DNA of 59,310 nucleotides, from positions 1 through 59,310 of the forward strand of contig JAGWBR010000010.1 of NCBI GenBank assembly GCA_021295785.1, in the 5' to 3' direction. Made by a program: the position numbers and the translations under genes. The DNA comes from Gemmatimonadota bacterium. Its GTDB lineage: Bacteria; Gemmatimonadota; Gemmatimonadetes; Palauibacterales; Palauibacteraceae. Position 1 is the stretch's first letter, and every line of letters begins with the position of its first letter. This document shows, one piece after another, positions 16,984 to 29,117 of this stretch. Below the pieces are notes generated by a model. It worked only from the letters and a program-made list of their open reading frames with translations, did no database searches and was not told where the DNA came from.

Positions 16984-17795
16984 ACGAGCCTGTGCAAGTA
17001 AACGAGCAGACCCAGGTCACGATACCGGAGGGCGGCCCGGACCCGTCGGCCGATTGGCGCCCCGGGGGCGAGGGCAGCGTGTTCAGGGCCGAAGGCCTCG
17101 TGCGCGCGTTCAAGAAACGCCGGGTGGTCGACAAGGTGGACCTGGAAGTCCGTCAGGGCGAGATAGTCGGCCTTCTGGGCCCAAACGGCGCCGGAAAAAC
17201 CACGACCTTCTACATGATGGTGGGCCTGATCAAGGCCGATGAGGGACGTGTCTTCATCAACGACGATGAGGTCACGAAGTGGCCGATGTTCAGACGGGCG
17301 AGGGCGGGGGTCGGATATCTGCCCCAGGAGGCATCGGTCTTCCAGAAACTGACCGTGGAGCAAAACGTGATGGCCATCCTGGAGACGCTTCCGTACTCCA
17401 GGGAAGAGCGCCGCGAGCGTTGCCAAAAACTCCTTCGGAGCCTCTCGATCAGTCATTTGGCCAGTCACCGGGCCTATTCGCTGTCAGGAGGTGAGCGGCG
17501 GCGGCTGGAGATCTGCCGTGCCCTCGTGACCCGGCCCAAATTTCTGCTCCTCGACGAGCCGTTTACCGGCGTGGACCCAATCGCCATTGATGACATCCAG
17601 CGCATCGTCAAGGGACTCCGCGACCGGGGGCTGGGCGTGCTTATCACGGACCACAATGTGCGCGAAACACTGACCATCACGGACAGGACCTATCTCCTTT
17701 ACGACGGCCACATTCTGGTCGAGGGCGACAGCGAGGAGATCACCCGGGATCCATGGGCTCGCAAGGTATACCTGGGCAGCGACTTCCGGCTCTAG
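16980..17795 (+). CDS. lptB: LPS export ABC transporter ATPase
   Basis: LptB powers extraction of LPS from the inner membrane with LptF and LptG. The 271-aa protein has the Walker A motif GPNGAGKT, Q-loop GYLPQEASVF, signature LSGGERRRLEI, Walker B LLLDEPF and the switch histidine in ITDHNVRE. A 30-residue N-terminal extension precedes the ABC core. The ATG overlaps the preceding stop. lptF and lptG are not in the window. Confidence 0.95.
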   Translation: MNEPVQVNEQTQVTIPEGGPDPSADWRPGGEGSVFRAEGLVRAFKKRRVVDKVDLEVRQGEIVGLLGPNGAGKTTTFYMMVGLIKADEGRVFINDDEVTKWPMFRRARAGVGYLPQEASVFQKLTVEQNVMAILETLPYSREERRERCQKLLRSLSISHLASHRAYSLSGGERRRLEICRALVTRPKFLLLDEPFTGVDPIAIDDIQRIVKGLRDRGLGVLITDHNVRETLTITDRTYLLYDGHILVEGDSEEITRDPWARKVYLGSDFRL

Positions 17796-19216
17796 GCGCG
17801 GCCGCTGCACTGGAGCAGAGGCAGGAGCTTCGTACAGACCCCCGCCTCTACCAGGCGATGGAGTTGATGTACCTGCCCCTGCCCGCCCTCCAGGCCCGGA
17901 TCGAGGACGAGATCCTGACCAACCCCTACTTGCAATGGGACGACGATGTCCGCGATCAACCCGACGACCAGGGCGACCAGCCCGACGCACGGGAGCCGGT
18001 CGAGTTCGATTGGCGGGAAGCGGCGCTGGTTGACACCGATTCCGGTTGGTACGAAGAGGGCGCGGGCCGGAGTCTCCCGTCGGATGGCTCGCCGGTACCC
18101 GACGCGGACGACCTCTGGGACCGGCTCAGGCAGCAACTCGCGCTGATCCGTCTTGGCGAACGCCAGAGAGCGATCGGTGAAGAGATAATCGGCAACATCA
18201 ACTCCGAAGGGTACCTGACCTGCGCGGTGGCCGAAATCGCCGCCGGGGCACCTGTCGAAGGTGTGACGGAAAAGGAAGTCGAGACCGTGCTCCGCGAGGT
18301 GCAGCAGTTCGACCCCGCCGGCGTGGCGGCCCGGAACCTGCAGGAATGCCTGTTGATCCAACTGCGGGAACAGGGAAGGGCAGCGAGCCTTGCGGCCCGC
18401 ATCCTGCGCGACGGCCTGGAAGCACTCGCGCGGCGCGACTGGACGTCTCTGGCGAACAAGCTCGGCGTGTCGGCGGCGGAGGTAGAGGCGGCCGCCGATG
18501 AGATTTCACGGCTCGATCCGCGACCCGGGTTGGTCCACGCAGACCTCGGCGATTCCTATGTGACCCCGGAACTGAGGGTGACCGAAGAAGACGGCGTTCG
18601 GAGCGTCGTGTATTCTTCGTGGGCCGCGCCGCGAGTTCGGGTTGCGGCCCACGGCTATCCCGGCGACACCGCCAACAAGTCTCTCAGCGAGGCCCGCGGG
18701 CGCGCCCGGTGGTTGGTCAGGGCCATGGAACAGCGGCGCATGACCTTGCTTCAAATCGCCGGTGTAATAGTGGAGAAGCAGCGCGGGTTCTTCGAGAAGG
18801 GCGAAATCGGCCTTGCACCGCTGACGCGGAGAGAAGTGGCCCACCGGTTGGGGGTCAACGAATCCACGGTGTCGAGGGCCGTCCACGGGAAATACATCGA
18901 AACGCCGCGCGGCACCCGGCCGCTTCAGTTCTTTTTCTCGGCAGGCGTGCCGGGAGAGGGGGGCAGCGCCGTGTCCGCGACCGCGGTCAGGGCGAGGATC
19001 AGGGCACTGATCGCGCGCGAGGACCCCGCCGTGCCGCTCAGCGACGCATCCATCCAGGAGAACCTGGAGGAGGAAGGCGTGAAGGTCGCTCGGCGCACGG
19101 TGGCGAAATACAGGTCCGAATTGCGGATCCCCCCGGCCCGGGAACGCCGCCGCGCGGTAGGGCCGGCGCCGCGTGGCCCCGCGGAAAAAAACAGCCTTCC
19201 GGGCGGAAGTCCGTGA
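17753..19216 (+). CDS. rpoN: RNA polymerase sigma-54 factor
   Basis: RpoN directs RNA polymerase to GG-N10-GC promoters that need an activator ATPase. The 487-aa protein has the Gln/Leu-rich activator region at the start (LEQRQELRTDPRLYQAMELM), an acidic linker, the core-binding domain with FDPAGVAARNLQECL, the helix-turn-helix LTRREVAHRLGVNESTVSRA and the RpoN box ARRTVAKYRSEL. The ATG lies inside the lptB 3' end, an overlap of 43 bases, and lptB-rpoN linkage is common in diderms. A matching promoter is present at 24796-24812. Confidence 0.96.
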   Translation: MGSQGIPGQRLPALGAAAALEQRQELRTDPRLYQAMELMYLPLPALQARIEDEILTNPYLQWDDDVRDQPDDQGDQPDAREPVEFDWREAALVDTDSGWYEEGAGRSLPSDGSPVPDADDLWDRLRQQLALIRLGERQRAIGEEIIGNINSEGYLTCAVAEIAAGAPVEGVTEKEVETVLREVQQFDPAGVAARNLQECLLIQLREQGRAASLAARILRDGLEALARRDWTSLANKLGVSAAEVEAAADEISRLDPRPGLVHADLGDSYVTPELRVTEEDGVRSVVYSSWAAPRVRVAAHGYPGDTANKSLSEARGRARWLVRAMEQRRMTLLQIAGVIVEKQRGFFEKGEIGLAPLTRREVAHRLGVNESTVSRAVHGKYIETPRGTRPLQFFFSAGVPGEGGSAVSATAVRARIRALIAREDPAVPLSDASIQENLEEEGVKVARRTVAKYRSELRIPPARERRRAVGPAPRGPAEKNSLPGGSP

Positions 19217-22813: not shown

Positions 22814-24061
22814 TTGTCGGTGGAGCGATTTGTAGCCGCCCGGTACCTGCTGGGCCGCGGGCGGGCCGACGGTTCCCGGCCGGTGGTCGTCCTTACCGGC
22901 ATCGCGGCCGCGGGGGTCGCGGTTGGGGTGGCCGCGTTGATCGTGGTAATCGGAGTGCTGCAGGGCCTGCAAACCAGCCTGCGCGACCGCATTCTGGCGG
23001 GAGGCCCCGACGCCCACGTCGTCCAGCTCGACAACGAGTTCGCGCTGGACGACTGGCAGGGCGTGATCGACGTGGTTCAGCGGGACGAGGCCGTGTTGGC
23101 TGCGTCTCCCGTGGTCATAACCGACGCGATCCTCAGGGCCGGCGACCAATACAACCAGACCGTGATGCTGCGCGGGATTGCGCCGGGCGAAGAGGCAGAC
23201 CAGATGTCCGGGCTGCGCGAGAGCCTCCAGACGGGAGGCGGCCCGTACAGTGAGACCGAATCCGGCGACCCCGGGGTGGTGGTGGGAGTGGGGTTGTCGC
23301 GGAGTCTCGGGTTGCGGACGGGGTCGTCGGTGGTGGTGGCGTCTCTCCAGAACGCGCCGCTGTCGCATTTCGGGTTTTCCCCCGCCTTGGCCCGGTTTGA
23401 GGTGACGGGGATCTTCGAGACGGGGCTCTACCAGTACGACGACCAGTTGGCCCTTGTCCCGGTTGTGGACGCCCAGAGGCTAACCGGCCTGGGGACCTCG
23501 GTGACCGCCGTCGAGTTGGACGCCGTTGACCCGTGGGAAGTCGAGGCCCTGGCCGAGCGGCTTCGCGACCGGCTCGGTTTCCCCTATCACATCGACACGT
23601 GGCAAGACCTGAACGGGAGCCTCTTTTCGGCGCTCAGGCTGGAGAAATTCGGCATGGGCGTGGTCCTGACCCTGATCGTGATCGTGGCCTCGTTCAACAT
23701 CGCATCGACCCTGGTCATGCTTGCGGCGGACCGGACGGGCGAGGTGGGCATCCTGCGGGCAACGGGCTTCACAACCAAGTCGGTTTCGAGGGTCTTCAGG
23801 TGGGCCGGGCTGTGTATCGGCGCGGCCGGGACCCTGGCGGGGCTTGCTCTTGGCGGGGCGGCGGCGTGGACGCTGGGCCGGTACGAGATCATCTCGCTGC
23901 CCAGCGACGTGTACTTCCTTGACCGGTTGCCGGTGTCGGTCAGCGGATGGGACGTGGCCTGGATTGTTACGGGGTCGATGTTGATTTCGTGGGTCTCGAC
24001 CATTTATCCCGCACGCCGGGCTGCCCGCATGAACCCGATCGACGCGATCAGGCACGAATGA
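22814..24061 (+). CDS. Lipoprotein-releasing ABC transporter permease, LolC/LolE type
   Basis: LolC/E extract lipoproteins from the inner membrane and hand them to LolA. The 415-aa protein has a first membrane span near residues 25-50 (GVAVGVAALIVVIGVLQGLQ), a large periplasmic domain, and three C-terminal spans of the FtsX type (VLTLIVIVASFNIASTLVML, then LCIGAAGTLAGLALGGAAAW), ending in the typical YPARRAARMNPIDAIRHE. Only one permease gene is present, so it may act as a homodimer (LolF-like). The start is a TTG. It overlaps lolD as ATGA. Confidence 0.92.
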   Translation: MSVERFVAARYLLGRGRADGSRPVVVLTGIAAAGVAVGVAALIVVIGVLQGLQTSLRDRILAGGPDAHVVQLDNEFALDDWQGVIDVVQRDEAVLAASPVVITDAILRAGDQYNQTVMLRGIAPGEEADQMSGLRESLQTGGGPYSETESGDPGVVVGVGLSRSLGLRTGSSVVVASLQNAPLSHFGFSPALARFEVTGIFETGLYQYDDQLALVPVVDAQRLTGLGTSVTAVELDAVDPWEVEALAERLRDRLGFPYHIDTWQDLNGSLFSALRLEKFGMGVVLTLIVIVASFNIASTLVMLAADRTGEVGILRATGFTTKSVSRVFRWAGLCIGAAGTLAGLALGGAAAWTLGRYEIISLPSDVYFLDRLPVSVSGWDVAWIVTGSMLISWVSTIYPARRAARMNPIDAIRHE

Positions 24062-24756
24062 ACGTCCGCGCGGCCGCCCCCGTTGTTTCGGCGAGAGGGC
24101 TGCACAGGCAGTTTGCCCGGCCCGGTGGCGGATCGCTGGAGGTATTGCGCGGTGTGGACCTGGAAATCCGGCCGGCCGAATCGGTGGCCGTCGTCGGCGC
24201 CAGCGGCTGCGGAAAATCCACTCTTCTGCACCTGTTGGGCGCTCTGGACAGGCCCAGCTCGGGTCAGGTGTTGCTGGGCGGGAAGGACACACGGACCACG
24301 GCCGACGGCGAGTTGACCAGGCTGCGCCGGCAGCACGTCGGGTTCGTGTTCCAGTTCCACCACCTGCTGCGCGATTTTTCGGCCCTGGAGAACGTGTTGC
24401 TGCCCCAGCTCAGCGTGAACGGGGTCACCAAAGCGCAGGCCACGGACCGTGCCCGCGAACTGCTTGATGCGGTGGAACTTAAGGACCGCGCGGCGCACCG
24501 GCCGGCCCAGCTCTCCGGCGGGGAACAGCAGCGAGTGGCTGTTGCCCGGGCGCTCGCCAACCGTCCGACGCTCCTCCTGGCCGACGAGCCGTCGGGCAAT
24601 CTGGACGACGAATCCACCGAGCCTCTCCACGACCTCTTGTTCTCGTTGCTGGTGGACCAGGGGAGCGCCCTCGCCGTGGTAACGCACGACAAACGCCTGG
24701 CCGACCGAGCGGACCGGACAATGAAACTCAGGGGCGGAGTCCTGCACCCGGCCTGA
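24058..24756 (+). CDS. lolD: Lipoprotein-releasing ABC transporter ATPase LolD
   Basis: LolD drives lipoprotein release with the permease just upstream. The 232-aa protein has Walker A GASGCGKST, the FVFQFHHLLRDFSALENV Q-loop characteristic of LolD/MacB ATPases, signature LSGGEQQRVAVARAL, Walker B LLLADEPSGNLD and the H-loop VTHDK. Confidence 0.93.
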   Translation: MNVRAAAPVVSARGLHRQFARPGGGSLEVLRGVDLEIRPAESVAVVGASGCGKSTLLHLLGALDRPSSGQVLLGGKDTRTTADGELTRLRRQHVGFVFQFHHLLRDFSALENVLLPQLSVNGVTKAQATDRARELLDAVELKDRAAHRPAQLSGGEQQRVAVARALANRPTLLLADEPSGNLDDESTEPLHDLLFSLLVDQGSALAVVTHDKRLADRADRTMKLRGGVLHPA

Positions 24757-24795
24757 CCCCGGCCAGGAGAGCCGCATCCCCGTTCGGCTGGCGGG

Positions 24796-24812
24796 TGGCA
24801 CGGATGTTGCAT
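24796..24812 (+). promoter_or_regulatory. Consensus sigma-54 promoter upstream of mcsAB-clpC
   Basis: TGGCACG, four bases, then TTGCAT matches the sigma-54 consensus TGGCACG-N4-TTGCW at every fixed position, with GG and GC ten bases apart. It lies in the 177-base gap after lolD and points towards the arginine kinase gene, which starts about 110 bases past the expected transcription start near 24822. A run of nine C lies at about that start point. No activator binding site could be identified by eye. Confidence 0.8.
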
Positions 24813-24933
24813 CCCGGACTGCACCCCCCCCCGCCATCCGCCGCCACCGGGAAAAGGCCCGCCCCAAGTGGCCCGCCGGAACCGCCGCATGCGCAAAGAG
24901 TGAGCCTGCCACGTTAGATTACGACCATGGACC

Positions 24934-26604
24934 GTGTACCAACGATTATGGGCACTCTCTGGTGCCGAAACCGACGCCGCGCCGTCTGACGTGATCGCGG
25001 GAGAAAAATCGGGCGACCCGGGTTCTGATCCCCAGGAAAATCCCGAATCGACCGCCGATGCCGTCACCGAACGAGACGGCGGCGCCCCCGAGACCGACGC
25101 GGACGCGCGGGACGAGACCAGCGTCTGCGAGTACTGCCGCACCGGAACGACCTACATGCGTTCCAGCGGACGGCTCGGGTGCCCGCAGTGTTATGCCCAG
25201 TTTGCCGACCGGGTAAGGCCGATCCTCGCCAGGGTCCAGGGTGACTGCCAGCACGTCGGGAAGTCGTATCTCAGTGCAGCGGCGGGCGCGGCTCCTGCTG
25301 AACGGATCCAGCTGTCGGCTCTGCGCCGCCGCCTTGCCAGGGCCATCGAAATCGAAGACTATGAAACCGCGGCCGGGATCCGGGACCAGATACATGAATT
25401 GCGGGCCGGGCTCCAACCGGCCGATGTCGAACTCCCAAAGCCATCGCCGGCACCCGAGTTCGGGGGGCGGGGCCTGGAATGGCTCTCGGTTTCCGGCCCG
25501 GAGCAAGACATAGTCATCTCCAGCCGGGTGCGGCTGGCCCGCAACGTGCAGGGGTTCGCGTTTTCCGCCAGGCTGGCCGAAGAAGAAGGCCAGGCCGTTC
25601 TCCAGCTGATTGGGGACGCGGCCAGCGGGAACCGCCTGCTGGGCCGTATCGACGCCTGGGAGATGGCCAACCTCTCCCTGCGTCAGCGGAGGCTCCTGGT
25701 CGAACGCCGTCTGGCCAGCCCGGAGCTGGTCTCGGCAAGGGGAGACAGGGGCGCCCGTCCCGGAGCGGCGATAATGCTGGGCGGCAACGGAATGCTAAGC
25801 GTAATGGTCAATGAAGAGGATCATCTGCGCCTTCAGAGCTTCCGGCCGGGTCTCCAGATTGAGGAGGCATGGCGAGAGGCGGAACAGCTTGACGAAGAGC
25901 TGGGGACGCGGCTCCCGTTCGCATTCCATCAGGAGTTCGGGTTCCTGACTTCCTGCCTCACCAATGCGGGGACCGGGCTGCGGGCTTCCGTGCTGATTCA
26001 CCTGCCGGGGCTTGCCCTGACCCGCCAGCTGGCGCGGGCCCTCAGGGGACTTGAGCAGATGGGAGTGACGTGTCGCGGCCTCTACGGAGAACGCAGCGCG
26101 GTCGTGGGCAATTTGTTCCAGCTCTCCAACCAAACCACGATGGGCAAGAGCGAGGGAGCGCTGGTGCGCGGGTTCGCCGCGTTGGTTGACCGGGTGATTT
26201 CGTGCGAACGACAAGCCCGCGGCGCGCTGCTGAACGAGGCCTCCGGGGCGCTGGAAGACAAAGTGTGGCGGGCGACGGGCCTGCTGAGCGAGGCCCGCAT
26301 ACTGCCGCTTAGGGAGATGTTGAACTTGCTGTCGGCGATCCGGCTTGGGGTATCGCTGAAACTGATTGCCGGGCCGGGCCTGGGCCAAATCACGCGCGCC
26401 GTGGTGGAAGCTCAACCTGCCCACCTGGAGCGACGGATTGGCCGACAGTTAAACCGATATGACAGCAACAAGATCAGAGCAGATTACGTGCGCGAATTAA
26501 TGAAACCGACTACCGGGGCAGGACCCGTGGGGCGGGAGGAGTCGCCCGCGCCAACCGCCGCGGCTGCGGGAAGCAGTGCATTAGGGGGCGGAGAGAGTCC
26601 ATGA
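24934..26604 (+). CDS. McsA-McsB fusion: protein arginine kinase with activator domain
   Basis: In Firmicutes McsB phosphorylates arginines to mark proteins for ClpC-ClpP, and the separate McsA activates it. Here both are one 556-aa chain. Residues 1-62 are acidic and unrecognised. Residues 65-110 match the second McsA zinc finger (CEYC, then [16 protein letters not shown] follows); the first finger is absent. Residues 127-157 are a UVR motif. From about 179 the kinase shows [27 protein letters not shown] (293-297 the acidic and His residues), [15 protein letters not shown] (Cys341) and [10 protein letters not shown]. The start is a GTG and is uncertain because the first 60 residues have no homology to judge by. 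It overlaps clpC as ATGA. No ctsR is present. Confidence 0.92.
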
Positions 26605-29117
26605 GCAACTACAAGTTCACAGACCGGGTCAGAAATGTCCTGAAGGCGGCGCGGGCGGTTGCCAAGAAACTCGACCATGATTTTGTGCGCACGGAGCACC
26701 TGCTGCTGGCGCTTCTCATGGACGAGAGCGAGGGCGGTGGAGTAGCGCAGCAGGTGTTGAAGATGATGGTGGGCGACATGGCCCCGCTGCGCAGCGCCGC
26801 GGAGGATCTGGTCCACCACGGCAAGAGCTCTTCGCTGCTTGAGTCAGCGCCCGAATACTCGTCCCGTGCCAAGAAGGTCATTGAGTACGCGATGAGCGAG
26901 GCGTCAAACCTCAACCACACCTACGTCGGGACCGAGCACCTGCTGTTGGGACTGCTGCGCGAGAAACAGGGCGCGGCGGCCAAGGTGCTGGCGGAACACG
27001 CAGTGGATTTCGAGGAAGCCAGGGGACAGATCCTCCACATGCTTCTCAAGCAGAAGCTGCCGCCCGAGGCGCTGTCGGCCGCGGCGGCCACCAAAGGGGG
27101 CGGTGGGTCCGCTCAGAAAAGCACCAAGAGCGGGAAGAAATCCCGTACACCGGCGCTCGACCATTTCTGCCGGGATCTCACGGCCCTGGCGGCTTCTGAC
27201 GAGCTCGACCCGATAATCGGGCGCCACGCCGAGATTGAGCGTGTGGTCGAGGTGCTGTCGCGCCGGAAGAAAAACAACCCCGTGCTGGTGGGCGAACCCG
27301 GTGTTGGCAAGACCGCCATTGTCGAGGGTTTGGCCCAGGCCATCCACAACAAGGACGTGCCGGCCAGCCTGGAGAGCCACCGGGTACTGGCGCTGGACAT
27401 GGCCGCGGTCGTGGCCGGCACCAAGTACCGGGGTCAGTTCGAGGAGCGGCTCAAGGCCATCGTCAGCGAGGTTTCCAAGCACCGCGGCGTGATCCTGTTC
27501 ATCGACGAGTTGCACACGCTGGTCGGCGCGGGTGCCGCGGAGGGTGCGATTGACGCGTCCAACATGCTCAAGCCGGCCCTGGCCCGGGGCGAACTGCAGT
27601 GCCTGGGTGCATCGACCCTCAACGAATACCGCCGGCACATCGAGAAAGACGGTGCCCTGGAGCGCAGGTTCCAGACCGTTATGGTGGAGCCGCCGACGGT
27701 CGATGAAACCGTCGAGATCCTGAAGGGTCTCCGCAAGCACTATGCCGAGCACCACAGGGTGGACATCCCCGATTCGTCGCTGGAGGCCGCGGCGCGGCTA
27801 TCGGACCGCTACATCGCGGACCGGTTCATGCCCGACAAGGCCATCGACGTTATCGACGAGGCGGGGGCACGGGTCCGTCTGCTCTCTCAGAAGAATCCGC
27901 CGAAGGAGCCCCAGCTCCAGGACGATCTCAACGATCTGCTGAAACGCAAGGAAGCCGCAATCCGCGAGCAGGACTACGAAACGGCGGCGCAACTGCGCGA
28001 CGAAGAAAAGACCCTTCGCGAGAAGATCAAGCAGCAGCGCGAAGCCTGGGAGAAGAGCCTGGAAGAATTCCGTCCGTCGGTCAGCGACGACGAAATAGCG
28101 TTCATTGTGGCTCGTTGGACGGGTGTGCCGGTGACCCGCCTGCAAGAGGCCGAAACCGACCGCCTGCTCAGGATGGAAGAGGAGCTGCACGAGTCGGTGG
28201 TTGGCCAGGACGAGGCCATTCAGGCCGTCAGCAGGGCCATCCGGCGGGGCAGGGCCGGCCTCAAGAACCCCGACCGCCCCATCGGAAGCTTCATTTTCTG
28301 CGGCCCCACCGGAGTCGGGAAGACCGAGCTTGCCAGGACCCTCGCCAGATTCCTGTTCGCGGACGAGAGCGCGCTGATTCGTGTCGATATGTCCGAATAC
28401 ATGGAGAAATTCACGGTGAGCCGCCTGATCGGGGCACCGCCGGGATACGTCGGTTACGAAGACTCCGGGTCACTGACCAAAGCCGTGAGGCGTCGCCCGT
28501 ATTCGGTGGTGCTGCTGGACGAGATCGAAAAGGCTCACCCGGATGTCTTTAACATCCTGTTACAGGTGCTCGACGAGGGTCGTCTAACCGACAACTACGG
28601 ACGGGTCATCGACTTCAAGAACACTGTGCTGATCATGACGTCCAACGCCGGTACGCGCGACCTGTCATCCACCGGGGCCCTGGGTTTTGGAGGCAACGAG
28701 ACGGCCGGGCCCATGGACTACGAGCGGGTGAAGCAGAAGCTCCAAGACGAGGTGGACCGGATCTTCTCGCCGGAGTTCCTGAACAGGGTGGACGAGACCA
28801 TCGTTTTCCACGCGTTGTCCAAGAAGGAACTGGGCGAGATCGTGCACATCCAGCTGCGGCAGGTGCGAGCACGTCTGGAAGAAGACGACATCTCGCTCAC
28901 GCTGACCGACGAGGCGGTGGAATTCCTGGTTGAAAAGGGCTACGACGAGAAATTCGGTGCCCGTCCGCTGCGGCGCGTGATTCAGCGGTATCTGGAGGAT
29001 CCGCTTTCCGAGCGAATGCTGACGGCCGAGATAGGTCCCGGCGACCAGGTCTCTGCCGGCGTGGACGAGGCGAAGGAGGCCCTGACAATCGGGACGCTGA
29101 CGCCCTCGCCCGCTTGA
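26601..29117 (+). CDS. clpC: ATP-dependent Clp protease ATPase subunit ClpC
   Basis: ClpC unfolds substrates and feeds them to ClpP. The 838-aa protein has two N-terminal Clp repeats (residues 5-150), Walker A of the first AAA domain GEPGVGKT with Walker B ILFIDELH, a middle domain with a UVR motif ([20 protein letters not shown]), and the second AAA domain with [11 protein letters not shown] and [11 protein letters not shown]. The length and UVR mark it as ClpC, not ClpA or ClpB. Pairing with the arginine kinase just upstream suggests the phosphoarginine-tag degradation route; clpP is not in the window. Confidence 0.96.

Follow-up and report, generated by a model that had tools for sequence, protein, structure and literature searches.

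Is the operon encoding a protein-arginine kinase and ClpC in an uncultured Gemmatimonadota bacterium controlled by sigma-54? This question is raised by a short sequence element found directly in front of these genes. The window, i.e., the whole stretch of DNA that was analyzed (59,310 nt), corresponds to contig C20 in an assembly of 2.18 Mb that is 85% complete. The features relevant to the question are as follows.

17753-19216, plus strand: rpoN, encoding sigma-54; complete, with activator-interacting, core-binding and DNA-binding domains
24058-24756, plus strand: lolD, the upstream neighbor; start picked inside ORF 23947-24756
24757-24933, plus strand: lolD-mcsA gap of 177 nt, containing the element
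24796-24811, plus strand: sigma-54-type -24/-12 element TGGCACGGATGTTGCA, an exact consensus match of 16 bases
24934-26604, plus strand: fused McsA-McsB ORF (protein-arginine kinase plus activator part); true start codon uncertain
26601-29117, plus strand: ClpC-type Hsp100 ATPase; start overlaps the end of mcsB

The preliminary description of this locus had claimed a perfect match to TGGCACG-N4-TTGCW, and indeed all 12 fixed positions match, with the GG at 24797-24798 and the GC at 24809-24810, i.e., with the correct N10 spacing. Its start coordinate stands, while its end (24812) was placed one base too far. The site is also intergenic and correctly oriented, as had been stated, between the lolD stop at 24756 and the first start at 24934. 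A pattern search finds no second exact match in the window, where base composition predicts 0.014 on both strands, in agreement with the earlier estimate of about one in a hundred. The corresponding expectation for the plus strand of the 177-nt gap is 2e-5. The complete 2.18 Mb assembly contains three exact matches, versus one for the reversed pattern and 0.54 expected. Weaker matches in the window carry no meaning, because 71 sites with up to three mismatches were found versus a mean of 86 in shuffled sequences.

The base preceding the TGG of the element is a G, at a position where the longer published sigma-54 consensus expects a pyrimidine. The bases past the -12 region are GC-rich and soon reach nine C. 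Judging from the usual spacing of about 12 nt past the GC, transcription would start near 24822; the nine-C run is found at 24824-24832, about 2 nt past this predicted start. A sigma-70-like promoter or a terminator was not found at 24600-25100. Two long minus-strand ORFs, 24004-24912 and 24264-25142, span the element and were taken for chance ORFs of GC-rich DNA.

The neighboring genes are those anticipated: an arginine kinase gene, here as the McsA-McsB fusion, is followed in the same direction by that of a ClpC-type ATPase, and the rpoN gene said to lie nearby upstream was found with all three of its domains. Its product contains ARRTVAKYR, which we take to be the RpoN box. The name ClpC was drawn from the position of the gene behind mcsB and from a UVR motif. 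Similarly, the name lolD derives in part from its position behind lolC, the score against the LolD model being 257 bits versus a curated cut-off of 307.75 bits. The McsA-McsB fusion was seen in none of 107 relatives examined, with mcsA and mcsB separate in all 107. The first McsA zinc module, consisting of two CxxC motifs, is missing from the fused ORF; the double CxxC is present in 105 of 105 relatives. Inspection by eye of the three frames of the lolD-mcsA gap did not show a decayed copy of this module. Of the best 80 relatives that a database search lists for the McsAB protein, the majority bear the name Gemmatimonadota. The repressor CtsR (PF05848) had no match in the assembly, a weak result because the control search matched only one of 14 genomes and missed Bacillus subtilis, which has CtsR, and one further limited because the assembly is 85% complete.

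The preliminary description had named the presence of the motif before mcsAB in relatives as a check. This check fails: none of 105 loci keeps the motif. The comparison comprised 109 relatives with mcsB, including a few from other phyla and some that are copies of one another, minus two with no recognizable mcsA and two with too little upstream sequence. With the GG and GC kept, no site with fewer than two mismatches occurs within 500 nt before mcsA in any of the 105; one relative has a site with two mismatches and 20 have one with three. Seven of these 21 sites are at -122 and, judged from the start positions, probably lie inside mcsA itself. This failure is explained in part by the lolD-mcsA gaps, which are mostly short compared to the 177 nt seen here: taking the conserved ATG as start, 14 of the 16 same-genus loci listed have a gap of 12 to 43 nt. 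Gaps of about 210 to 290 nt, with no motif, are found in the other two same-genus loci and in five loci of genus g5. An alignment of the lolD-mcsA gaps from the genus shows no shared promoter by eye. In five relatives, long stretches surrounding mcsA contain no core with up to one mismatch on the plus strand, and two one-mismatch cores on the minus strand. As a side observation, a second small-genome member of the genus (G034) has no sigma-54-type core near mcsA, and no ClpB-like weak match among its Sigma54_activat matches.

The lack of conservation and the short gaps of the relatives favor an alternative in which the element is a chance match in a widened spacer, and mcsAB-clpC is read through from prfB-lysS-lolC-lolD. 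However, an exact match would arise in this gap by chance with an expectation of only about 2e-5. More information on this alternative comes from the distribution of the core, GGCACG-N4-TTGC, in the genome. The exact core occurs 11 times in the assembly, versus seven times for the reversed control and 9.2 expected; that is, there is no genome-wide excess, and eight of the 11 cores lie inside or antisense to an ORF, as would also fit a chance match. Yet the remaining three, which are all the intergenic cores that point toward a gene, are found before dnaK, hsp20 and mcsAB-clpC, i.e., chaperone or protease genes in every case. This sorting is a matter of judgment, because long antisense or wrong-frame ORFs, judged not to be real, cover these three sites too. 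The distances from element to start are 122 nt for mcsAB, 93 nt for hsp20 and 111 nt for dnaK; the hsp20 site is the second full-consensus match of the genome. The third full-consensus match, on contig C27, falls within an ORF and was discarded as a chance occurrence.

For a set of ten stress operons, each taken with 200 nt of upstream sequence, 0.004 cores would be expected, and the nominal probability of three or more is about 1e-8, a value that is a guide only because the set of ten was assumed after the genes had been seen. With up to one mismatch the genome has 16 sites versus 27 for the reversed control, and because the control exceeds the count this level was excluded from the evidence. 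In 35 genomes of the family, the tallies of the core sum to 122 versus 117 for the reversed pattern, again no excess, and the full consensus is not matched in any of 16 same-genus genomes, compared to 12 matches of the reversed pattern in this set. The surroundings of GGCACG-N4-TTGCW were surveyed at 117 distinct sites in the family, with one core site (in G033) left out. Besides hsp20, recurrent same-genus targets among these sites are clpB and dnaK.

At dnaK, the core was found in 12 of the 16 same-genus genomes, the gene being confirmed in each by the start GIDLGTTNS; this count rests on a pattern search, which gave no match at dnaK in the other four. Among nine close same-genus hsp20 loci, eight carry GGCACG-N4-TTGCA 65 to 118 nt before the start, and one (L151) lacks the core. 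When all 30 hsp20-like loci are considered, one of which has no upstream sequence, the exact core is present within 350 nt in 17 of 29, with one mismatch in six, and absent in six. For clpB, at least 30 loci were located with an in-frame query, and one of these ends at a contig end; in the 29 left, the exact core is found within 900 nt in 19, a one-mismatch core in six (GGCATG in five of them), and none in four. In eleven of these loci the distance from the core to the downstream clpB is 523 to 725 nt. In loci of other genera a weak Hsp20-like match is often seen between core and clpB, which is why six sites appear in both the hsp20 and the clpB lists.

Alignment of the regions upstream of these chaperone genes revealed a second element, the palindrome TGCC-N5-GGCA. 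It is exact at -85 or -86 in all 10 aligned same-genus dnaK loci and near -106 in 12 of 13 aligned clpB loci, and is present with seven of eight positions near -107 or -117 in seven aligned hsp20 loci. Under a rule of at least seven of eight positions within 160 nt, all 46 hand-picked chaperone promoters pass, versus six of 84 other core sites. The corresponding Fisher value of 6e-29 is an overstatement, because related genomes are not independent. The hand-picked set took 12 of 30 hsp20 loci and 24 of 30 clpB loci. When the test was repeated with no picking on 30 hsp20 and 30 clpB loci, the rule held for every listing that has a core, 23 at hsp20 and 25 at clpB. The 23 include the hsp20 of the genome under study, whose palindrome site is weak. 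Same-genus promoters are no independent test, because the palindrome was read from them; among the 46 are 15 chaperone promoters from other genera, all of which satisfy the rule, weakly so in at least two cases (L155 and L163). The spacing of the palindrome follows a rhythm of about 10.5 bp, with a vector length of 0.78 for 27 gene-position points, compared to 0.41 at 10.0 bp and 0.40 at 11.0 bp.

In the genome under study, dnaK has the palindrome TGCCATTCTGTCA at -22 (0.006 in mononucleotide shuffles), and hsp20 has only a weak one near -62, which is not significant. At the window site, no palindrome with seven or more positions is present within 500 nt upstream or 300 nt downstream, and the best similar match has six of eight positions, at -20. 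This is a further point in favor of a chance match, and because of it we do not file the site as a proven member of the chaperone regulon, even though it may work like the sigma-54 promoters of dnaK, clpB and hsp20.

A regulon of this kind would require an activator. The Sigma54_activat model has one strong match in 14 of the 16 same-genus genomes and several in the other two (G029 and G033). The genome under study encodes one complete activator (L119), which contains GAFTGA and has AAA+ and Fis domains; its gene adjoins ysxC, clpX and clpP and lies about 9 kb from the dnaK site. In this and nine same-genus genomes, the activator and the dnaK site are on the same contig, about 9 to 13 kb apart; in three more, they are on different contigs. 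By eye, the N-terminus of the genus activator resembles a receiver lacking the aspartate that is phosphorylated; a true receiver (L347) in the same alignment has it. There is also a second activator fragment with GAFTGA (L120), which is broken off at the end of contig C2 and shares one open frame with pheT-looking sequence.

ClpB itself was not found in the assembly. The sole strong match to the ClpB model is the ClpC of the window, which at 973 bits falls below the cut-off of 1232. Thus, clpB is likely to be absent from this species, although this is no proof of its loss because the assembly is 85% complete.

To what extent, then, does sigma-54 control of mcsAB-clpC, as originally proposed, hold? 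The motif, its orientation, its position, the low chance expectation and the presence of rpoN all argue for it; the conservation before mcsA and the palindrome do not, and these two are the main reasons for caution. What rescues the proposal is that sigma-54-type promoters precede dnaK, hsp20 and clpB in this lineage. Three points make a real promoter more plausible than a chance match, namely the placement of the element, the existence of two sister promoters and the fact that clpB seems to be absent, and we regard the chance match with read-through as unlikely. Based on the sequence, our preferred interpretation is that the element is probably a working sigma-54 promoter, specific to this lineage, through which mcsAB-clpC joins a chaperone regulon controlled by sigma-54.

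A different possibility is that the promoter is real and answers to another activator, such as the one truncated at the end of contig C2, and to a signal other than that of dnaK and hsp20. Such an arrangement would account for a window site with no palindrome, and a second GAFTGA fragment is indeed present here, compared to one strong match in 14 of 16 same-genus genomes; however, only part of this second activator is present in the assembly, and we deem the possibility rather improbable. That the sigma-54 polymerase binds and does not initiate, blocking read-through from lolD, is very improbable: a binding site with no activator site would fit the missing palindrome, but the element is placed and oriented like a promoter.

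If the element is a sigma-54 promoter that joins mcsAB-clpC to the chaperone genes, RNA polymerase with RpoN would be held as a closed complex on the -24/-12 element until opened by an enhancer-binding ATPase, and the transcript would then start near 24822 and extend through mcsAB and clpC. In this way, an activator-dependent signal, presumably one of stress, would induce mcsAB-clpC along with dnaK and hsp20. In the relatives the same regulon would consist of dnaK, hsp20 and clpB, probably under a single conserved activator whose gene lies about 9 to 13 kb away from dnaK. Here, with clpB not found, the putative promoter precedes the operon that encodes ClpC, the ClpB-like ATPase still present, and a connection with the loss of clpB can be envisaged.

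The elements, their conservation before the chaperone genes and their placement suggest that Gemmatimonadota of this lineage run part of their protein-damage response with sigma-54. A broader and more tentative model, to which we give somewhat less than even chances, is that sigma-54 serves this lineage as a dedicated protein-damage sigma factor. That is, one RpoN and one orphan activator encoded near dnaK, with a receiver that could not be phosphorylated in the usual way, would drive dnaK, clpB and hsp20 via the phased TGCC-N5-GGCA, and sigma-54 control would have been rebuilt before mcsAB-clpC where clpB was lost.

In the best studied bacteria, chaperone genes are controlled by sigma-32 or by repressors such as HrcA and CtsR. 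We take COG0542 to be the Clp ATPases. Sigma-54 control of chaperones is known as a kind in other phyla. For Planctomycetota and Bacteroidota, the passages concerned predict sigma-54 control of GroEL, GroES, GrpE, DnaJ, DnaK and IbpA, state that some of the genes are dependent on it, and name COG0542 as enriched (PMC12316311). As here, sigma-54-type promoters are thus predicted there before core chaperone genes; in contrast, the main text does not contain 'Gemmatimonad' or 'clpB', and a single activator, a palindrome and mcsAB, all described here, are absent from its relevant passages. The hrcA-grpE operon of Chlamydia trachomatis, in the parts of the sources that deal with it, is likewise a heat-shock operon with a sigma-54 promoter, in tandem with one for sigma-66 (PMC7482065, PMC8762339). 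It differs from the present case in this tandem arrangement with the main sigma factor, in the HrcA repressor and in the AtoS-AtoC activator system. The arginine kinase genes are tied to sigma-54 in Chlamydia as well, there by expression data: upon double knockdown of sigma-28 and sigma-54, mcsA was 2.7-fold and mcsB 3.9-fold down, whereas a second knockdown column gives a value for mcsA only (-2.27), and the portion consulted does not show a direct promoter (PMC10597470). Another study of Chlamydia does not mention mcsA or mcsB (PMC12282069). In Escherichia coli the small heat-shock gene ibpB is stated, in the passage concerned, to be transcribed by sigma-54 (PMC4370416), similar to hsp20 here; in that organism, different from our proposal, sigma-32 transcribes ibpAB too. 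The relevant passages on Desulfovibrio (PMC4641369) and of a sigma-54 overview (PMC3162934) contain no chaperone regulon, and a table in the latter, from genomic-context analysis, gives plus signs to protein turnover and chaperones as a category. For Leptospira, the passage concerned ties clpB to ECF sigma factors (PMC12655853).

In the literature searched we recognized no description of a sigma-54 chaperone regulon in Gemmatimonadota; one with a single activator and a phased site, and with an apparent extension to mcsAB-clpC, is not found there. If our proposal is true, sigma-54 and a single activator would place protein repair under ATP-driven, activator-dependent control. With one activator and a defined DNA site involved, the proposed regulon lends itself to direct testing. 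The gain of a sigma-54 promoter before mcsAB-clpC where clpB is gone would, if true, be a clear example of how regulation is rewired once a gene has been lost.

Finally, sigma-54-type sites in sister genera also precede genes of other kinds, identified by eye: pilA-like genes at two loci, pilB-like genes at five, ssb-like genes at five and relA-like genes at four.
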